The notes beneath the pieces are model-generated. The model was given only the letters and a program-made list of their open reading frames with translations, was not told where the DNA came from and did no database searches. A stretch of DNA of 64,000 nt from Himantopus leucocephalus. Its lineage: Eukaryota; Chordata; Aves; Charadriiformes; Recurvirostridae. The position numbers and the translations under genes are program-made. Positions 28,905 to 57,422 of this stretch are shown here, piece by piece. Position 1 is the stretch's first letter. Every line of letters starts with the position of its first letter. Location: positions 52,653,232 to 52,717,231 of the forward strand of contig RSEF01000031.1 in NCBI GenBank assembly GCA_003993805.1, written 5' to 3'.

Positions 28905-29282
28905 CTGTCATATAAGAAAAAGAAAACATACAACACTTAAAATGATAGAGTATATTTCTAATATATGCAGTAATAAATATTGGAAGTACTGATTTTACCT
29001 GTAGTTACCAGTTATTTGTTATTTGCATAATATTATATCAATGTTTTTTCACAATAATTTGCACTCTTTGTTCTGATCAGAAATGTGGATTTCTGTCATG
29101 TATGAAAAAGAAAACGTACAACACTTAAACCGATAAAGTATATTTCTAATATCTGCAGTAATAAATATCACAGAAACTATGATTTTACCTGCAGTTACCA
29201 GTTACTTGTTATTTGCGTAGTATTTTATCAGTGCATTTTCACAATGGTTTGCACTCTGCGTTCCGGTCAGAAATGTGCATTT
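28905..29282. repeat. tandem duplication of a 188-190 bp unit
   Basis: Copy one is about 28905-29092 and copy two about 29093-29282. Both carry, in order, CTGTCAT, AAAGAAAAC, TACAACACTTAAA, AGTATATTTCTAATAT, TGCAGTAATAAATAT, GATTTTACCTG, AGTTACCAGTTA, TTGTTATTTGC and TCAGAAATGTG. Matching positions are offset by 188 to 190 bp. They differ at many scattered sites (roughly one in six by eye), so the duplication is not recent. Neither copy resembles a known transposon. Confidence 0.92.
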
Positions 29283-35396: not shown

Positions 35397-35757
35397 CCAA
35401 ACAGCCCATGGCACAAAGCCTAAGAATGAAGTTTGGTAGCAGTTTCAGATCACCAAGTTCTGTGCTGATGCCTGCAGCCAGCATGGACTAAACATAACCT
35501 TATAAAAATAGATGTGAAAGTGAGAGTGGAGATGACATAAAGCATTGCCAAGATTAGCTTCTGAAAATATTTCTTATCTACAGCCTACTTGAATGGACAG
35601 GACCTCCTTCCTCTGCTACCTTTCACACATTGTTGTCTCATTCTACGTGGTATGTGAATTATTAATGACCTGCTGGGCATAACTTTGTTGCCTATTGCAG
35701 TTTTGGGCAAGAGGGGCTTCTCTCGCTTGATCCACTGGTAACCATACCATCCTCATC

Positions 35758-36135
35758 CTCATCCCCATCCCCATCCCCATCCCCATCCCCATCCCCATCC
35801 CCATCCCCATCCCCATCCCCATCCCCATCCCCATCCCCATCCCCATCCCCATCCCCATCCCCATCCCCATCCCCATCCCCATCCCCATCCCCATCCCCAT
35901 CCCCATCCCCATCCCCATCCCCATCCCCATCCCCATCCCCATCCCCATCCCCATCCCCATCCCCATCCCCATCCCCATCCCCATCCCCATCCCCATCCCC
36001 ATCCCCATCCCCATCCCCATCCCCATCCCCATCCCCATCCCCATCCCCATCCCCATCCCCATCCCCATCCCCATCCCCATCCCCATCCCCATCCCCATCC
36101 CCATCCCCATCCCCATCCCCATCCCCATCCCCATC
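35758..36135. repeat. perfect (CCCCAT)n array, about 63 copies
   Basis: The hexamer repeats without a visible error for about 378 bp. Six consecutive 60-base rows are identical, so the phase never slips. The left edge holds interrupted CCTCAT units (about 35748-35760) that look like the decayed ancestral motif. The complementary strand is (GGGGAT)n, with four-G runs separated by two bases, a dense G-quadruplex pattern; the C-rich strand could form i-motifs. Because the hexamer has no stop in any phase, 158-182 codon minus-strand frames of Met-Gly, Asp-Gly and Trp-Gly dipeptides cover it; these are not genes. Confidence 0.98.
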
Positions 36136-46900: not shown

Positions 46901-47880
46901 ATGAAACTTCCAGCTGTGGTATCGATTTGATGGACCTGCCCTCTATGACAGACTTAAAGGTCTTCAGGACTGGGCAGCGTGAGAAAGCCACAAAGCGTGG
47001 AGACACCATGAACTGGGGAGAGAGCTGTCCAAGAGTCAGGGGAAAGCACGGCCTCTCACATAGGTACCATTAGGGTCTCCTCACAGCCTGATGTTTGAGG
47101 ACAAGACAAATACAACTCCCTTTTCCTTCGCCAGTGGAAGGAAAAGAGAGGGAAGACCCAGAGAGAGTCCAGGCTAATTCAGCAGCCCCATGGTTACAGG
47201 AAGCTTGCGATTCTGAAAATATTTTTCAAATATAATTATGTTGAGGTAAAACATCTTTCAAAAAATACTGCTCAACAATGAAATGTTTCTGTCCTCTTCA
47301 AACTGTTAGGCCTGAAATCCTGCCAACAATACCCTTTGCAGCTGTTTATATTGGTTCAGTTCCCTTCCTGTTATCCATTTATTTGTTCTGTGCTTGTTAG
47401 CATTTTGTGCTAGTTCTAATTTCCTCTCCCTATCTAATCTACGCAGTTGACTCAGTTCAACTGTCAGATTCCTCCTTTTTTCTCTTGCTTTTTCTCTTTT
47501 TTTTTCATCTCAAGGTTCACATATTGTTTTAACTCCTCTTTAACTTATGAAAAGCCATATATCTCTGTGTTAACTACTGACAGTGTATGCTACATTTGCT
47601 AGCAAAACAAGGCAGGGATTTTACTTTCCTATGAATGCATGGAGTCTTTGGCATTGTGATTCCCGCTAGCAGTAATGGGAACTGCACATGCAAATCTCTG
47701 TTTTGCCTGTAGTCCCCATTTATTTAGTTGCTAACACAAAAACAAAATAATCAGATCAAACTTTCAGTGTCTTCTAGATTTTACTAATAGGAAATAGATT
47801 AGTCTATCTCATTTTTACATTAAATTCTAGGGTCAAAATTGTTGACATTTGAAACTCATAAATGTGTACCTAGAGATGTT
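43935..47880. other. unique non-coding sequence
   Basis: No gene is supported. A perfect 8-bp stem with a 6-nt loop, CTGTAACT...AGTTACAG, lies at 44166-44187 and a T-run at about 44220-44232. Frames at 46549-47073 (up to 106 codons) have no known motif. Confidence 0.5.
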
Positions 47881-47985
47881 CTCACATTCTTGCTCCGTTC
47901 TTACTCCAGCAAAACTGGAATAGAGTTCAGTAAGAGTTCAGCCTAAAATGAGTTGCATAAATCTGGTTAAAGAGTCCAGGATTTG
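47881..47985 (+). repeat. ancient amniote interspersed repeat remnant
   Basis: Blocks TTACTCCAGCAAAACTGG, AGAGTTCAGTAAGAGTTCAGCC, GAGTTGCATAAATC and GTCCAGGATTTG resemble the 'actcaggcaaaactcc', 'gacttcagtgggagttttgcc' and 'gcaggatttggcc' blocks of an old sauropsid repeat. The match is by eye and the family is not assigned. Confidence 0.4.
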
Positions 47986-49845
47986 TCGATGCATTTTTAA
48001 TATACTTGAATATTATGGAAAATTCCATTGGTTCATTCTGACTCCATAATCAATGCTCACATATTCCCTAGCTTTCTCAGACAAAAGGGAACAGTACACA
48101 AAGGGGTTAATTGTACAGAAGTGACATCATTGTTCATATCTGTGGTTATCATCCCACGGTCCATTAAGACCAACGTCTTTAGCTCCATTCACCAAGAGGA
48201 CAATCCGGAGCTCTCAGGAATCAATGGCAATAACCCAACCCAGTGCAGTGAGCTCCCAGGCCAGCATGAAAGAAACTGAACTGAAATGTGGTTTGAAAGA
48301 CCGTGAGGAGGCTTTGCCCAAACGGCAGCTCCGGCACTGAAGGTTTTTGCGATGGAAGTGCTTTGGTAGCAGAATGGAGCCAGCCCCTTGTTTTCCAGGC
48401 AGAGTCATGTGCAAAAGTGAAGACTGGCGGTGGTACGACTGGCTTTATGAATTAAAAGGAAGGCAAAGCAATGCATGAACTATGCGATGAAAGCAGTACT
48501 ATTTCTAAATGGGTATTGCAGAGTCTCAAACAGGTGTGGTGAGCTTACTTACCCCCTGCACTTTATTATGAAAGGACATACGAAGCACAAATGTTCATGT
48601 TCCCTGGTTATCTAGGAGGATGAACTTTACAGACCCCTATCTTAGACTGAAATCTTAACATGTTCTATGCCTTAAAAACAGTTCTTCACCAGCAGCAAAT
48701 TCCATAAAAAGTTTCTGTTCCATGGTGGGCCAGAAATGTGCTGAAAGCCATGATGTTAAACAGCACTGTTTTAGTGATGATGTTAATGGCTGTCCTCAAG
48801 TGAGTTTCAAATCCCCAAATAATATTTTTTTTCTTAAGTCAGTGGATCCCCCTAAAACTTTCCCAGTCTCTAGACAAATTAGGCCCCTGCATATGCCTGA
48901 AACAACAGTAAACAGTAGGTGAAGGCACCGAATAGGACAGAAGTACGGAAAGTGACTGAAAATAAGAGCTACTTTTGCAACTCTAAAAGCTGCTACAGCA
49001 AAAAAGGCTGTCAGGCAGTCTGGAAAGTTAGTTAAGAGCAGGACCCTGAGAGAAAGCTAAAAGATGCGTCTTGTTGGGCAGAGAGTTGGCTGCAGTGTCA
49101 TATGTGGGAGCTCTGGGCTGGGAAAATGCCCTTTGATGCTCATTACAAGTGTGGAAAGAAGACATCTGGACGTGTTTTGTAAATAAACAGGATTACACTA
49201 AATAATATACCTGACTCGGAGCATCCATTTCTAATGGTTTATTTTAATGATTTATTTAGACGGGAATTTCCTGCATTATTCTGCGTTCTGTATCACCCAT
49301 GTTTACTTTGCAGCGAGCGAGCCAGACTCACAAAATGAACTGCGTGATCTTAGGGCTCGCTCAGTGGCGAGTGATCCAAAAGCCACGTTTTGTGGCTTCC
49401 TGGAGGGAGCAAGCATGCGCTTGGTGCTCATCTCACCTTTTTGAAAAGCCAAATTAAACTGCTTGCAAAGAAAATGAAATGTGGCGTTAGGATCCAGGCT
49501 CGGGCGAGCTCTTACCAAGCTGATTGCTCACGGTTCAGCTCACAATAAAATACGCGGGAGCTGGTGTCGCTGCAGCAAACACTGGGGAGCAGCTAGGTCA
49601 AGAGTGTGATAGGCAGCTGATGTCAGCTTACCACTGAAATCGTGTGCGATGTTCTGTACTGTCTTCTCACCGCTCGTGGGAGAGCATGAGAACATATGGC
49701 TTCTCTGGAGCAGCCTATGTGGTGAATTAACAGTGTATAATCTTGGAGAGATATACGCTGCCTTGGTCTAGCTTGGCTCTGGGTATCCAGACTGACCTAC
49801 CACCCCCTGACCAGGACACCTGATGCTCCTTGGGGTCACTGACAA
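47986..49845. other. unique non-coding sequence
   Basis: No gene is supported. A perfect 7-bp hairpin, AAGCCAC-GTTTT-GTGGCTT, lies at 49380-49398 inside a patch with several CpGs (about 49310-49560). Overlapping frames on both strands there have no familiar motif. Confidence 0.5.
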
Positions 49846-49885
49846 TTTTTTTTTTTCTTTTCTGTGTTTTTTGCTTATTTTTATT
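49846..49885 (-). other. minus-strand AATAAA and A-rich run downstream of the fossil pol
   Basis: Read on the minus strand, AATAAA (49885-49880) precedes an A-rich run (49861-49846) by about 20 nt. This lies just beyond the 3' end of the decayed retrotransposon described next, in the same orientation. It may be the poly(A) end of a retrocopied transcript or coincidence. Confidence 0.4.
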
Positions 49886-50114
49886 GAAGAGGGCAGAGGT
49901 GTGTGGCTTACAACACAGCAGACTCACAGACACTGGAGCAGGGGCGCCTGCTCTTGAGTAGGTGAACCAGGCTGAAATTCTTTGCAGGCGCTGTAGTGCT
50001 GTATGCCAACAATATCTCACATGTGTCATCAGTCTTCTTTAAATGGGATGTCTTGACAGAGCACTTGTTTCAAGGAGGATCTCCCCAGGATATGGAAGAC
50101 GGTGAAGGAGCGCC

Positions 50115-50330
50115 TCAAGACATAAACCATTTATTGCACGGGTTCTTAGAGGGGTTGATACACTTCAGTGGGAAAACAGGTTTATGATTAGTTTCAAAAG
50201 ATATAGCAAGCCCTCTGATGAAATATTGAAAATATCCAAACGCTCCAGTCAGAGCAGGATTTTGTACTCGTGAGTACCTCCCTGCTGGACCGTGATCAAG
50301 ATCCCTGCCGTGTGTTAAGTTTTCTGCTCT
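50115..50330 (-). pseudogene. RNase H remnant of a Ty3/gypsy-type element
   Basis: An uninterrupted minus-strand frame carries RYSRVQNPALTGAF, then FQYFIRGLAISFETNHKPV. The sequence FETNHKPVFPL (50166-50198) matches the characteristic end of the gypsy-type RNase H core, where a Thr-Asp-His-Lys-Pro block is expected; here the Asp is replaced by Asn. The first catalytic region of the domain is not visible. This is the most convincing single piece of the fossil. The frame ends in TGA at 50115. Confidence 0.8.
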
Positions 50331-50358
50331 ATGTTGAGCACAGAACAATGCCCTTCCT

Positions 50359-50946
50359 TTAAGATGAACCACAAGTCAGAGTAACTGGGTTGAAAAACAA
50401 TGCCATCTTTTCTAACACATGTTTTCTCACATTCAGACTAGATACTACCTCTTCAAATATTTGTAAAGCTTTGAGCAGACTATTGTCATTGGTCTTGACT
50501 GTAAAGTCATGGACTATTTTGCCATCCTCTTGTGACCAAAGGTCCACCAAAATCTGGGCGACCTCCTCCTCTGAAATAGTTAAGATATCTCAAAGAGGAA
50601 GCTTTTCAACATATGTGTCTCTCAAATGGAGTAATGAACATGGCTGTGTACATGCTACCCAAGGATGCCGTGCCTCACAAAACACAACTAGGCATTACTT
50701 CATCACCTTGATTGGTCTCTGCTTGACCCTTGGCATGGAGAAATACACATTTCATAGACTCCCGGAGCTCCAGCAGCTTGATACAAATGGAAGTGTGTCC
50801 AGCAGGCTTTATTCCACTAGCTGGGGATGCTCCAGTGACAGACTTATCACCTGAATCAGTAACTCCTCTGTGAAACTTGTTTTGGCATCTTTCATTAGAG
50901 GGAGTTGTTTGAGGCACAGTGAATACAAAGGTCTGAGCACCTCTCT
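50359..50946 (-). pseudogene. reverse-transcriptase remnant of a Ty3/gypsy-type element
   Basis: Four pieces in successive frames are recognisable. At 50812-50946 is the start of the domain (a proline/leucine-rich lead-in followed by a stretch ending HPQLVE and a stop at 50809-50811). At 50675-50800 is the strand bearing ICIKLLELRESMK (50750-50788). At 50624-50638 is FITPF, a block conserved before the palm of these enzymes. At 50359-50590 is the C-terminal part containing AQILVDL, then LLKALQIFEEV, then FFNPVTLTCG. The segment where the catalytic aspartate pair belongs has only one Asp (VHDF), so the active site is lost. Stops and frame shifts separate the pieces. The assignment rests on the order and spacing of weakly conserved blocks and needs a profile search. 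Confidence 0.68.
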
Positions 50947-51369
50947 TCAGCCTAATTAAATAGGATTCCTTCTGTTTTCTTAGTCTGTTGAAAAGTCTTG
51001 GGAATACTTGAACTAAGTTAATTTGGTCTCATCCAAGATTTGAAACTGATTTATTTCTTCACTTGCCTTACAGATTAACATCAGGCTTCAAAGTAATTTC
51101 CTACTCAAGTGTCTTTATGCTGTGCATAGGATCCAGCTTTTTCTGCATTTTAATGGTCTGCAAGGACTCTTTCAAGGAAGCAAGGGAAAGGAGGAGAGCT
51201 GCAGATGAGCCAGGACAGACCCATGCATAGTCCCAAAACCAGGTGTGGCATTGGTCCCTGTGCCAAATCCAAGGTGGCAGAGGTTTCTCAGAACACAGCA
51301 ATTACAGTCCACAGGCTTTGGCTCTGAGTTTGTGTTAACAAGTAGTTCACCTACAGGAGACTTGCTCCT

Positions 51370-51450
51370 TGAGCAGCACACATGCAGGTGCTGACTGTTC
51401 TTATGACAGCTGTGATATATGGCACTATTAGCGGCATGTTCATCACATAG
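51370..51450 (-). pseudogene. possible gag zinc-knuckle remnant
   Basis: A minus-strand frame (51172-51492) contains CDEHAANSAIYHSC followed by HKNSQHLHVCC. The Cys/His spacing is close to, but not exactly, two adjacent CCHC knuckles; one Cys position is Tyr. Its place upstream of the reverse-transcriptase remnant in the same orientation is what makes it plausible. By itself it would not be convincing. Confidence 0.35.
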
Positions 51451-51480
51451 ATGTCTGGGGATGGGCAGAGACACTTGACC

Positions 51481-54400
51481 CTCAGGCCACACAGGTTTCT
51501 CCTGAGATCTTGTAGATCTTTCACTGCTTTAGCTTTCAGGTCTTCCTCTGCAGTGCCATAACTGCTGGCGTGCATTGCTTTTGTTCTTCCATGGGTAATG
51601 TGCTGCATTGGGTAGGTGTACGCTCTTGGCAATGCAGATAGAAGTGAAGCAGCTTTTGAAATTGCCGGAAAAAAACTTTCCATCATCCAAAGTTATGTCA
51701 ACTCCTACTCCAATATGCATTGGTGTCACTTATTAATTGCCCACACTTCTCCTACTGAGGATAACATGCTGCAGAGGCCCTAGATGGTTAGGACTGGAGA
51801 AATCATGTAAACCTACAGGGGAGAAAAGTTGAGTATGGGTTTCTGGCATTCAAACTGAAAGGTACGGCTGCTGAGCAGTGCTGTCCTCGCCTACTTGTGT
51901 AACTTACTTCTGCTGAATCTTTAATTTCCTATGTGTAGCAGCATCCCGTGGTTATAGATGTGGCAGACAACATGCAAATATGGAGTACAGAGAAAGAAAT
52001 TATCTAAAGAACTCAAAATTTAAGTGATTTATGCTTAAAATCCAAGAAGTAGGAAGAGGTAGGACTACGTAGTTTTCTCTAACATGCAGAGCCATGTGAA
52101 TATCATGAAACAATAAATGAAACATGGCACTGAATTTTCTGGTCACAAAAAAATATCTGCCGGGTATTTTTGATCAAGAACAGAAGATGAAATTTATTGT
52201 ATTTGCATTTTACCTGTAAAGAGACAGAACTGGGCTGATCAAAAGCAGTAACTACTACAAATCTTTCAATTTCTTGACAAAACATGAGTATTTCTATTCT
52301 TTTAGATGCAAATCCTAATAAATAATGAATAATATTGGTAATAATGGTCTAATTTATCCATTTAAGGAAACCCATTATAAATGTAAACAATAGTGCAATT
52401 CAACATTTATGAAGTCCTTGTTTTCTTTTCCTATGGAATTTATTTAACAAACATCACTAGAACCATCCATTATTTATCATATTTTAAAGTTTAATGAATA
52501 TGGATATGAAAATTGTTAAAAATTGAAATACAGAAAATGTCTCATTATCTTGTTGATGAATCTGGCCTGCAAGTTCAAATCCACAAGTGAAAATGAGTTG
52601 GCTGGTCTAAGCCACAGATTATTTGTCTACTAAATAGTTCAAAGTATTGATTCTTCACAGCCAGCAAAGAGATGTCTTGAAAAAAGTAATATATTCCAAA
52701 GTCAAGACTGTGAAACGTACTAATTGTGAGAAGAAAATTAGTTTAAAGAAATGAACTAACATGAACCTTTGCCCAAAATCCCATGCAAAGTGCATTAAAA
52801 TTGAACCAGGTAAAGTGAGGCATTTTATCTGTACATTTCTGTGTGCTTCTGTAACTCATTGCTTATGTGGACAGGATGAGTCAGTAGAAAATTAGATCTG
52901 AAAAAGCCAAACAACATCTCTTATTTCCAATGTGGTCAGAGCCGGGATTTTTCAAAGGGAAAAGACTTTACACTTTGCTTTTCTGAGATTTGATGGTAGA
53001 GTTCAAGGGCAAAAAATGCCAGCTAATCTTTGGAAGTTTGCTTTTCAAACCAAATTGTCAGCTGAGCAATTTGAGGACATTTACCACAAATAAATTATGT
53101 TTGGCTGGTCATTGCAGCATTTAAAGACAAATTTAAGCTCTAGTCTTCCTATAACTCTTTTCAAAATATGTTAGAGAGAAACTAATTAAAAAATCAGACT
53201 GAATTTTTATTTTTTCCATAATTGGACCTGGTGACAAGATATTCTTTTCCTGCAACAGATTTATTGTTTCCAGTGTCTATGAAATCCACATTATTAGAAG
53301 GTGGTCGGTTTTTTTTTAAAACAAATATTCTGTACAATAGTCTTGCAATTTTGGATGGTGTCAGAACACAGGAGGAAAACGAGGCACAGGAGTCTACAAG
53401 AGGCTCCAATCACTGCACCTAAGAATAAAGAAACAGACAATTGTAAAAGAATAAAAATTATTCTAACAAGAAAGTGTTGAAAAATAAAAGGCACCGTACA
53501 GCCTACAGTTCTTGCCAGGAAACCATCTATCAGGAGACTACTAAAGAGGTATCATTTTTGGGAGTTTGCCAATGGGACCTGATGATATGCCAAAACAGGT
53601 GTCTTAACATTAGGACAAAAGATAAAAGCTCAGACACTTCAATAGTTTTCATCACTGGAAGCTGAGGAGCAAGAGTCCGCTCCTAAGAGAGGAGTTATCC
53701 TTCTTTCCCTTGGCAGAAGGATACAGGAAGAACAGAAGGATACAACACATATATTTTAATCCATGTGAAACCAGATCAGAGCAACATTAAACCCTGAACC
53801 ACTGTCTTCGGAAGGGTTGTCACTGGGATGCTAAAAAGATTATTTTAAAGCCTACACTTATTTAGCTTACCCCTCCAAATGCAATGAAATATCATCCAGC
53901 AATTTGTTTTTTTGTTGTTGTTTTTGTTTTTGTGATTATACTAATGAGCTCCCGAGTTTGCAACACAGAGGATGACTTCAGGTCTGTGGCTCAAAAGCTC
54001 TGGCTGTGCCTGGGTTGCCAGGTGGTTGCCTTCTGCCGCTTGGTCTGGTTTTCCAGCCCAAATCAGCACACTTCTGCTCTGTGCATCCACATTTCCTACA
54101 GAAACCTGAATGTATCTACGGGGGCTGCCAGGAGGAGGGTACATGCCTGAATCCTGTTATCGTGTGAGCTGACACGTGTCCACGTGCTACCAGACCTGGG
54201 AGGCACTCGTGGACTTATCTCATGTGTCTGAGGTCTCGGAGTCATGATATTTTCCTACTTTGCCAGTGTGCTAGTGTATGTTCACAAGCACTTGTAAGGC
54301 TCACGTATGCTACAGTAATAGGCCTTAAAAATAGACAAAAGGCAGATTTATAAGCTGCTCATCAAAGAAATGGTCAAACAATTTTTGACTTCTCTAAATT

Positions 54401-55245
54401 GCTCTACTCTTCTTTGTAAAAGAATAATTTTTAGTGGTGCAGATTGGCAAAAGTCTTAGACAGTAGTGACGTTTACCGATTTGTTTGACTGTGGAATAGC
54501 CTATATCACCTACGAACAATTGCATATCCACTTCATACCCAGTCCACTGAGGTGAAGTAATTCACAGGAAGACATAAGTAGACTAGGACAAATTCAAGGT
54601 AGATCTTTCCTCACAGATCCCTCTATGCTCCTTCCACTCCCACATTGGAAGGAACATCTGTCTATTTGATCTGAAACAGTATCTTATAGCTCTTTTAGTG
54701 AGTAAGACTACAAATTTTGATTAATTCACCAGCGTCTCTGTTTAACTTTTTCTAACAAGGTAGGTGACTGTCTACTGTAATCATCATTACAAGGTTGGAA
54801 TAATGGTGGCATATATCTTTGGTCTCCACCCAAATGCAGCATGTTTTGGTATCAAGGCTTCTTAATTAAAAGGATATTCAGTGACAAGCAAACTAACAGC
54901 ACTTCACATTAAGCTGAATTATAATACCCAAACACTTTATTGTATTTCTGCCAGTTCCAGTAACTCTATAATTGCATCCGCATTCTGACATGCTTCTGCT
55001 GATATCACAAATGCATTGTGGCATCTGAGTCAGAATCACACCCCTCATTTTGCTAAGCTGGAAACAAAAGGATAGCGCATGGAGAAAATACTGGCTTTAA
55101 ATGCTGAGTAAATATTGCTGGGTAAAGCATCACTGCGCAATAAAGAACATGCATCTGCAAAATGCCAAGTGAACAACCAGCCTGCAAGACGGGGTCTGAA
55201 TACCCGAAGGCGCTGATCGTTCTTAACCAACTTCATGTCTCCATA
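51481..55245. other. unique non-coding sequence
   Basis: No gene is supported. Minus-strand frames at 51351-51729 may extend the retrotransposon fossil into gag, but no conserved block could be recognised. A TTG/T-rich low-complexity stretch lies at about 53907-53932. Confidence 0.5.
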
Positions 55246-55850
55246 TCATAAAATCATAGAATGCTTTGGGTTGGAAGGGACCTTAAAAATCATCTTGTTG
55301 CACCCTCCCTGCCCTGGGCAGGGACACCTCCCACCAGCCCAGGTTGCTCCAAGCCCCGTCCAACCTGGCCTTGAACACCTCCAGGGATGGGGCAGCCACA
55401 GCTTCTCGGGGCAACCTGCCACAGGGGATCACCACCCTCAGAGTGAAAAAATTTTTCCTAATATCTCACGTAAATCTCCCCTCTTCCAGTTTAAAACTAT
55501 TCCCCCTTGTCCTGTGGGTCCCCTCCCTGATCAAGAGTCCCTCCCCAGCTTTCCCGTAGCCNNNNNNNNNNNNNNNNNNNNNNNNNNNNNNNNNNNNNNN
55601 NNNNNNNNNNNNNNNNNNNNNNNNNNNNNNNNNNNNNNNNNNNNNNNNNNNNNNNNNNNNNGGACCTTGCACTTGGCCTTGTTGAACTTCATGATGTTCA
55701 CACATGCCCATCTCTCCAGCCTGTCCAGGTCCCTCTGGATGACATCTCTTCCCTCTGGTGTGCCAACTGCTGTACACAACTTGGTGTCAGCAAATTTGCT
55801 GAGGGTGCACTTGATCCCAACATCCACGTCACCAACGAAGACGTTAAATA
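55246..55850 (-). mobile_element. CR1 LINE, 3'-UTR and C-terminal ORF2 fragment, interrupted by a gap
   Basis: The 3' end is at the left (TCATAAAATCATAGAATGC, then TTTGGGTTGGAAGGGACC), followed by CCTGGCCTTGAACACCTCCAGGG and the AAAATTTTTCCTAATATC block. Beyond the assembly gap the minus strand encodes the CR1 reverse-transcriptase end: [28 protein letters not shown] and FNKAKCKV. The catalytic motif expected as F/Y-A-D-D reads FADT, meaning one Asp codon has been deleted in frame. The element is therefore dead and 5'-truncated near 55850. The 207-codon plus-strand frame across it is antisense and includes gap bases. Confidence 0.95.
55562..55661. other. 100-base assembly gap
   Basis: Exactly 100 N, the usual placeholder for a gap of unknown size. 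It falls inside the CR1 between its 3'-UTR and its ORF2 end, so the true length of this CR1 is unknown. Confidence 0.98.
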
Positions 55851-57422
55851 GTGTATGACAGTTAAATATCACAAGTTACAACCTTCTGCCCTTCTTTGCC
55901 CAAAGTCACATCCCTTCCCTTGTGGCTTTCCCCTGCTTTTTCCTCCTGCACCACGCACCCTCACCCCCGTCTTTCCTCGGGCTGCCACCACCCGTGATAC
56001 CCAACATCTGGCCGCTGATGCTGCCGTTGTCCTGCATGCCAGTGGGGACACAGCTGGCCGGTGGTTTGCCTTGGCAGGAGGGGGTCACCTGCGGTACGCC
56101 CAACTGCTGTGCAGGTGTACCAACCGCAGGATGGCAGGGGACCCGTTCTCTCAGAAATTTCTACCAAAGGTGCCCAGGCTCCAGGAGAAAGGTACGGCGT
56201 CCCCATCCTTCCTCCCAGCATTTTCTGCTGGCTGCTGTTTTCTGCTTTTTTTCACTTTATTTTTCACTTTTCTCCTGAAATGGCTTTGTTTCTTTTAAAA
56301 GGGCAATTGTTGGATAGTTAATGGTGGCATTAACAGCTCAAGAGGAAAATGGGAGAGAAAGCGGAGAGGGGGTGCTGGGCAGAAGAAGAAACACTGATGG
56401 CAAGGCCACAGAAAATTACTGGTAAGTGGTGTCTGGGTTTGACCTACAGATCAGGTATATAGAGCACTTTTTCTTAGAGAAAGGAATGATAGCTACTTAC
56501 CAAAACTCTGTCAGTTGTAAGTCTCTTATGTTGGGTATAAAAGCCTGGCTGCGGAGAAAGACCACTTATCTTTTACTCGCGACAGTCCAAAAAAGAAATG
56601 GCAGCTCGCAAGAACACCTCTTCAGTTTTTACTGCTAGCTGGATCAGCCTCATAAATGCCTAAACTCATATATAAAAATGTTAATGTTTTCCAATTGCTA
56701 TTCTGAATTTATATTTATTGCAATACAAGGTATCCATTAGCACATCTATCACTGGTAAATTTGTTACTGCTTCAAATATACAGTACATAACGTTGCAGCA
56801 ATTTCATTTTACAAGCTAATAATGTACTGTAATGTAGCTTACAATATCATGTAGATGTATTTGATTAGGGAGGTTCAACAGTCAGTCAGGTTGAATAGTG
56901 GATTATACGAGAATCAAGTTTTTAACTTATTTACTGTACAAATGAACAGCTTTGGTGCACATTAAATGTGTTAATTTAACAGGTGTGTCGTTTTATTTCC
57001 TCAAATATTCGTCGAAGAGGAACAAATGTTATTTTGACTCAAACTGAAGCACAGTAGACCTAGAATGTTTTTGACACTTGATGTGTTTATCCTTTAAAAG
57101 AAAGTCATAATTGTATTTAATTGTTTTCTAAATTTACTTAACTGCTGCATTCCACTGGCTGCAGTAACTTCCCGAGAGCAGGAGATGTAACTAAAATATG
57201 TTTTCCTGAAATGTTATAAAAATACAGAAATAGGCCTTTTTTTCAAACAAACCCAAGCTTCAAACACACACTGCCTAGGAGATGATTTTCTGGAAAAGTT
57301 TTGCACTTTGTTGAAAAAAGTGGTGTCACCCTTCCTACGTGGTTTTACCGAAACTTACAGCTGTGCGCTGTGCAGGTTGGCAATGTCTGCTGTGCCACCT
57401 GCAAGGCACAGGGTGCCTTGAG
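55851..57422. other. unique sequence, GC-richer at its left end
   Basis: From about 55870 to 56230 the sequence is GC-rich with scattered CpGs and gives overlapping frames of 60-147 codons on both strands, none recognisable. From 56300 on it is AT-rich and unique. It separates two minus-strand CR1 fragments. Confidence 0.5.

Follow-up and report, generated by a model that had tools for sequence, protein, structure and literature searches.

Decayed reverse transcriptase and RNase H remnants of Ty3/gypsy type on the minus strand of a bird genome

Introduction

The closest described counterparts of the locus reported here are the Gypsy protein fossils of the human genome. In the passages of that work covered here, Frith (2022; PMC9004415) describes human Gypsy fossils that predate the amniote split, 83 of which appear in Table 5 together with four still older ones, and draws attention to the extreme sequence conservation of these ancient transposable-element (TE) fossils; RepeatMasker had flagged just 3 of the 83. 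Gypsy relics, including MamGyp, are also listed in Repbase for human and mammals, according to the sections of PMC5753468 considered. A study of five bird genomes (PMC5486457) arranges their endogenous retroviruses (ERVs) in clades; in the 12 of its 32 mentions covered, Gypsy appears only among the references of trees or in connection with reptiles and fish. A study of chicken LTR elements names Gypsy and Copia as possible classes in the part considered (PMC5006616), and Gypsy is the outgroup in the corresponding part of a crocodilian ERV paper (PMC4299795). The main text of a squamate repeat paper does not contain the word 'gypsy' (PMC6050309). None of the papers listed by the literature searches made here names Gypsy protein fossils in birds in its title.

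The DNA analysed here, called the window throughout, is a stretch of 64,000 nucleotides (G000:C165:52653232-52717231) from a bird genome of 1.1 Gb; all positions below are those of the window unless a contig is given. An inspection of its letters had suggested a fossil Ty3/gypsy-type retrotransposon on the minus strand. We conclude that the site is almost certainly what remains of the pol region of a Ty3/gypsy LTR retrotransposon, a copy now dead and truncated that lies in minus orientation and probably entered the genome in an ancestor of the bird. The relationship of its sequence, the order of its pieces and their breakage were observed directly, and no second DNA copy was found.

Results

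The site carries the gypsy-type RNase H signature Y-S-x3-E ... T-D-H-K-P ... A-L-S-R with near-normal spacing: 28 residues separate the Y-S block from T-[DN]-H-K-P (30 in the references), and 42 separate the latter from the A-L-S-R block (47 in the references). The two segments singled out by the original prediction, FETNHKPVFPL (minus strand, 50198-50166) and RYSRVQNPALT (minus strand, 50279-50247), lie where it had put them. Both motif sets, for RNase H and for RT, were composed after the window had been read, and the random controls were first-order Markov sequences throughout, except for the shuffles applied to the T[DN]HKP DNA pattern; this pattern is present at a single place in the window and absent from all 100 shuffles. 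At the site, the RNase H signature in three blocks reaches 75, the top score of the window, against maxima of 67 (n=600) and 69 (n=60) in 64-kb first-order Markov randoms and of 54 in 20 further stretches of this genome, each 10 kb long, some of which contain runs of N (4842 N, about half of the stretch, in one case). A five-block motif score reaches 111, compared with at most 104 in 60 randoms and 102 at the runner-up place in the window. Within the PDB, the gypsy RNase H signature picks out two distinct Ty3 sequences, a third sequence named 'Enzymatic polyprotein' (which we take to be that of a caulimovirus), and no retrovirus. When 120 gypsy-type proteins were compared with the window by tblastn, the top match fell at the site and was to P0049, with 40% identity over 45 residues and the ALSR block in order; its E of 2.6e-5 is a single-query value from among 120 related queries.

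Conventional searches with the raw pieces behaved differently. The raw RNase H piece found nothing in a protein database, a PDB sequence search with two pieces found no relative, and Pfam, run on ten ORF pieces and nine trimmed pieces, returned no RT or RNase H match and a few unrelated weak ones for the raw pieces (E 0.026-0.19). Because Pfam and the protein database show neither RT nor RNase H for the raw pieces, the site escapes standard annotation. DNA patterns of the motifs, searched for in viral contigs and genome contigs, had no match.

A profile of the signature brought in gypsy-type proteins with RT and RNase H domains (2921 matches among 3851 candidates, E no higher than 1, with 120 among the matches listed), and one of these brought in further relatives (792 matches among 4330, E no higher than 0.001, again with 120 among the matches listed). 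In a frameshift-tolerant local alignment, a 17-row profile, in which P0063 is only partly represented after trimming to 88 residues, scored 87.0, 70.5 and 70.5 at the site in three settings; the corresponding maxima were 67.4, 60.2 and 60.2 in 60 random 64-kb sequences and 50.5, 49.0 and 49.0 in 200 kb of the same genome. Three stricter gap-cost sets were used and all are reported; laxer costs gave chance scores near 400. RT and RNase H stand in normal spacing in 38 of 239 references, and all 38 score 86-166 at the site. Every second one of these (19) was run against controls over 49950-51250, and with each of the 19 gypsy references none of 317 real bird segments of the same length reached the score of the site.

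The strict-setting trace spans RNase H alone (50255-50045), and RT was therefore tested separately. Over 50290-51250 the RT scores were 66.5, 102.4 and 156.4 in three settings. None of 1000 randoms reached them in any setting; among 453 real segments, none did so in two settings and a single one in the loosest. A chain of seven RT motif blocks scored 91 over the whole window, where 300 randoms had a mean of 93 and a maximum of 119 and real stretches reached at most 100; locally the chain is unusual, with 6 of 2000 local randoms as good. The site is absent from the list produced by a two-block RT motif test over the window. Taken together, tblastn, the profile, the separate RT test, the traces and the single-reference controls bear out both the proposed Ty3/gypsy pol origin and the order in which RT precedes RNase H.

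The anatomy of the pieces, all on the minus strand, was read from frameshift-tolerant traces with three references (P0011, P0203 and P0218), which broadly concur on a core of 51010-50042 and differ in detail. An N-terminal RT piece at 50909..51010 (14/34 residues identical to P0011; 11/33 to P0203, over 51010-50912) is followed, in another frame, by a piece at 50842..50901 that lies before the first conserved RT motif (6/20 identical to P0011). The R-[IV]-C-[VI]-D motif itself falls in the piece at 50753..50809, with its Asp replaced by Lys (8/19 identical to P0218; 7/22 to P0203, over 50809-50744). The RT palm is represented at 50559..50656 by FITPFER... and FQRRRS, distributed over three frames with a stop; FITPFER is identical in 6/7 residues in the loosest setting, and both placements are common to all three traces. 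Directly upstream of these palm pieces, 32 (P0011) and 24 (P0203) codons are unaligned, part of which the P0218 trace weakly aligns near 50656 (3/13), and a second loss of 24-32 codons is possible there. The following RT piece, at 50422..50556, runs across the Y-x-D-D position, with QILVDL 5/6 and the next 39 codons 11/39 identical to P0203; the position reads QEDG in the P0203 trace and HDFT in the P0218 trace, with no D-D pair in either.

The main internal loss zone lies at 50283..50422 (minus strand). In 17 of 19 references, TDHKP follows the R-[IV]-C-[VI]-D motif at a distance of 312-316 residues, which at the site is about 200, and therefore some 115 codons net have been lost between the RT motif and TDHKP; P0011 puts the junction mostly before 50385 and P0203 at 50283. 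The RNase H core at 50166..50282 (minus strand), comprising RYSRVQ and FETNHKPVFPL, is identical to the top line of the profile in 12/30 residues and to P0011 in 14/30, and scores 70.5 half-bits ungapped against the profile. It is followed at 50042..50127 (minus strand) by the RNase H end, SFTVFHI and then PGEILLETSALSRHPI, in two more frames (over 50089-50042, 8/16 identical to P0011 and 7/16 to P0203). Counting by hand from where the better-supported pieces start, we find at least eight changes of frame. Catalytic places are altered as well: K stands in the R-C-D motif, the D-D pair is missing from Y-x-D-D, N replaces D in TDH, and S is found in ADALSR. The frame changes, stops and large internal loss claimed at the outset are thus all seen.

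The span first assigned to the element, 49905..51480, is roughly correct; of it, 50042-51010 is solidly backed and the remainder is suggestive at most. A candidate gag zinc-knuckle remnant lies at 51352..51444 (minus strand), where the aligned CCHC is suggestive only (7/23 with P0218, 6/21 with P0203); an NC-protease profile over 50990-51950 was not significant, 163 and 15 of 453 real segments scoring as high in two settings. At the opposite end, 49842..50042 (minus strand) is a weak candidate for the RNase H-integrase spacer, with 7/15 residues identical to P0011 over 50042-49998. An integrase profile, of which 50 of 55 rows were used and some row starts may have been misplaced by trimming, was applied to the heavily decayed stretch 48900-50070 in two settings and was not significant, 329 and 75 of 361 controls being as good. 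No LTR-like repeat pair was seen in 47500-54500, and none was expected given the decay.

At the site, the best of five gypsy references scored 167 and the ERV reference 44, the control maxima in 115 pieces being 85 for gypsy and 89.5 for ERV. A fit to retroviral pol was not found with this one gamma-type reference, since at its score of 43.8 as many as 86 of 317 controls were as good; judged on that single ERV reference, the site is closer to gypsy than to retroviral pol. The ERV reference is the locus L022 (G000:C197:92471400-92472900), whose best PDB match is an XMRV-type RT. This locus is a retroviral-type pol whose frame stays open for 1222 residues without a stop and which carries the domains RT, RT_RNaseH and RNase H; having C-A-G-D at the Y-x-D-D place, its RT is probably inactive. 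It is possibly a retained ERV-derived gene, with OVEX1 as a candidate. As to the clade of the site, elements with TDHKPLVPL presumably belong to the Mag clade; such an assignment could not be decided on some 40 well-aligned residues of RNase H.

A DNA search of the genome returned the site itself as its only match, which is not proof of rarity. With E allowed to reach 10, Pfam RT_RNaseH was found at 85 places of the genome, including 52 marked as over the cut-off, and the site is missing among the 85. The 24 best loci were sorted by a rule fixed after the scores had been seen, in which gypsy-like means a gypsy score >85, an ERV score <=89.5 and a gap of at least 20. Eleven were gypsy-like (L023, L024, L026, L027, L029, L030, L032, L035, L036, L039 and L044), four scored higher as ERV (L041, L042, L046 and the reference L022 itself), and nine were undecided (L025, L028, L031, L033, L037, L038, L040, L043 and L045). 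With 11 of the 24 best loci gypsy-like, the site is not isolated in its genome, and the picture of a rare, isolated Ty3/gypsy copy finds no support. The uncharacterised lineage that the original prediction also considered is at most a possibility. Two of these loci, L029 (G000:C165:5300800-5302000) and L039 (5413700-5415000), are relics 113 kb apart that are 90.6% alike over 1175 bases, with an equal number of stops in the match; at most 10 of the 11 are therefore independent, and the pair may have arisen by duplication at a later time or belong to a defective repeat of younger age. A protein search of the genome with the raw RNase H piece returned, apart from the piece itself, one locus, L034 (E 0.86), which scored 56, no better than controls. 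When the 12 loci fetched first were compared with the site by tblastx, no match was convincing (best E 0.022).

The background of the window is of avian type, as had been stated: a LINE RT piece, which we take to be CR1-like, lies at 55531-55875 on the minus strand and is interrupted by a run of N. The window also contains an array of the hexamer CCATCC at 35747-36135 (about 65 copies, 99% matches) and a 190-base unit in two tandem copies at 28905-29282 (84% matches).

Discussion

The history that we propose for the site is that a Ty3/gypsy element entered the genome of an ancestor of the bird, in minus orientation and probably by the cycle of its type, in which RT copies the RNA of the element, RNase H removes that RNA and integrase inserts the DNA. 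The copy now present is incapable of this cycle, presumably drifts as neutral DNA and may be of great age. Such an age would not be new in kind, because pre-amniote Gypsy fossils have already been described in the passages of PMC9004415 covered here. The site is a new example of a known fossil class and is ordinary in kind.

Every single piece of the site is short, no relative appeared in Pfam, PDB or raw protein searches, and the chain of RT motifs does not exceed chance across the window, all of which would suit chance resemblances chosen by eye. Such an origin is nevertheless extremely improbable, as RNase H and RT are significant each by itself and none of the 317 real bird segments matches the score of the site with each of the 19 references. 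We also regard it as very unlikely that the site is a decayed endogenous retrovirus and not a Ty3/gypsy element. ERVs are presumably common in such genomes, and three loci among the 24 score higher with the ERV reference, beside the reference itself; at the site, however, that one gamma-type reference scores 43.8, and 86 of the 317 controls are as good, and the PDB matches of the RNase H signature are to Ty3 and the 'Enzymatic polyprotein', with no retrovirus among them. Descent from a host gene that had itself been domesticated from gypsy pol and later decayed to a pseudogene would agree with the failure to find a second copy at the DNA level, but the similarity of the site extends to RT and RNase H proteins of many sources, which appear to be those of elements, and further gypsy-like loci exist in the genome; we give this origin very little credence.

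The remaining alternatives concern what became of the copy after its insertion. The extreme conservation of ancient TE fossils, as reported in the covered passages of PMC9004415, would favour the view that the host kept the stretch for a regulatory or other function, whereas the reading frame of the site is not preserved, and we consider such exaptation unlikely. A fuller scenario, in which a Gypsy insertion predating the bird-crocodile or sauropsid-mammal split was selected as a regulatory element and its lineage has since become extinct in birds, is likewise improbable. As a dead, truncated Ty3/gypsy pol copy, the site indicates that bird DNA, too, contains Gypsy protein fossils that Pfam does not reach, matching the reports for human, alligator and turtle. 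Screening bird genomes systematically by frameshift-tolerant methods would probably reveal more of them than repeat annotation suggests, and would show when birds lost the Gypsy group.

The fossils of PMC9004415, in the passages covered, resemble the site in being decayed, frame-shifted Gypsy pieces in amniote genomes that were found by frameshift-tolerant DNA-to-protein comparison. They differ in having been dated via orthology (human, alligator, turtle), whereas the site lies in a bird and is undated; no bird locus is named in those passages, where 'chicken' has 0 occurrences and 'birds' 1. MamGyp and the other mammalian Gypsy relics are, in the sections of PMC5753468 considered, old amniote Gypsy traces like the site, yet they constitute Repbase repeat families, whereas the DNA search found no further copy of the site in its genome. 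Avian ERVs share the RT and RNase H of LTR elements, but the site fits the gypsy references and not the single ERV reference. Compared with Ty3/gypsy pol references, the site has about 115 codons fewer, its catalytic residues are altered and integrase was not found; yet it has kept the block order and approximate spacing of a Ty3/gypsy pol with a TDHKPLVPL-type RNase H, with 14/30 core residues identical to those of P0011.
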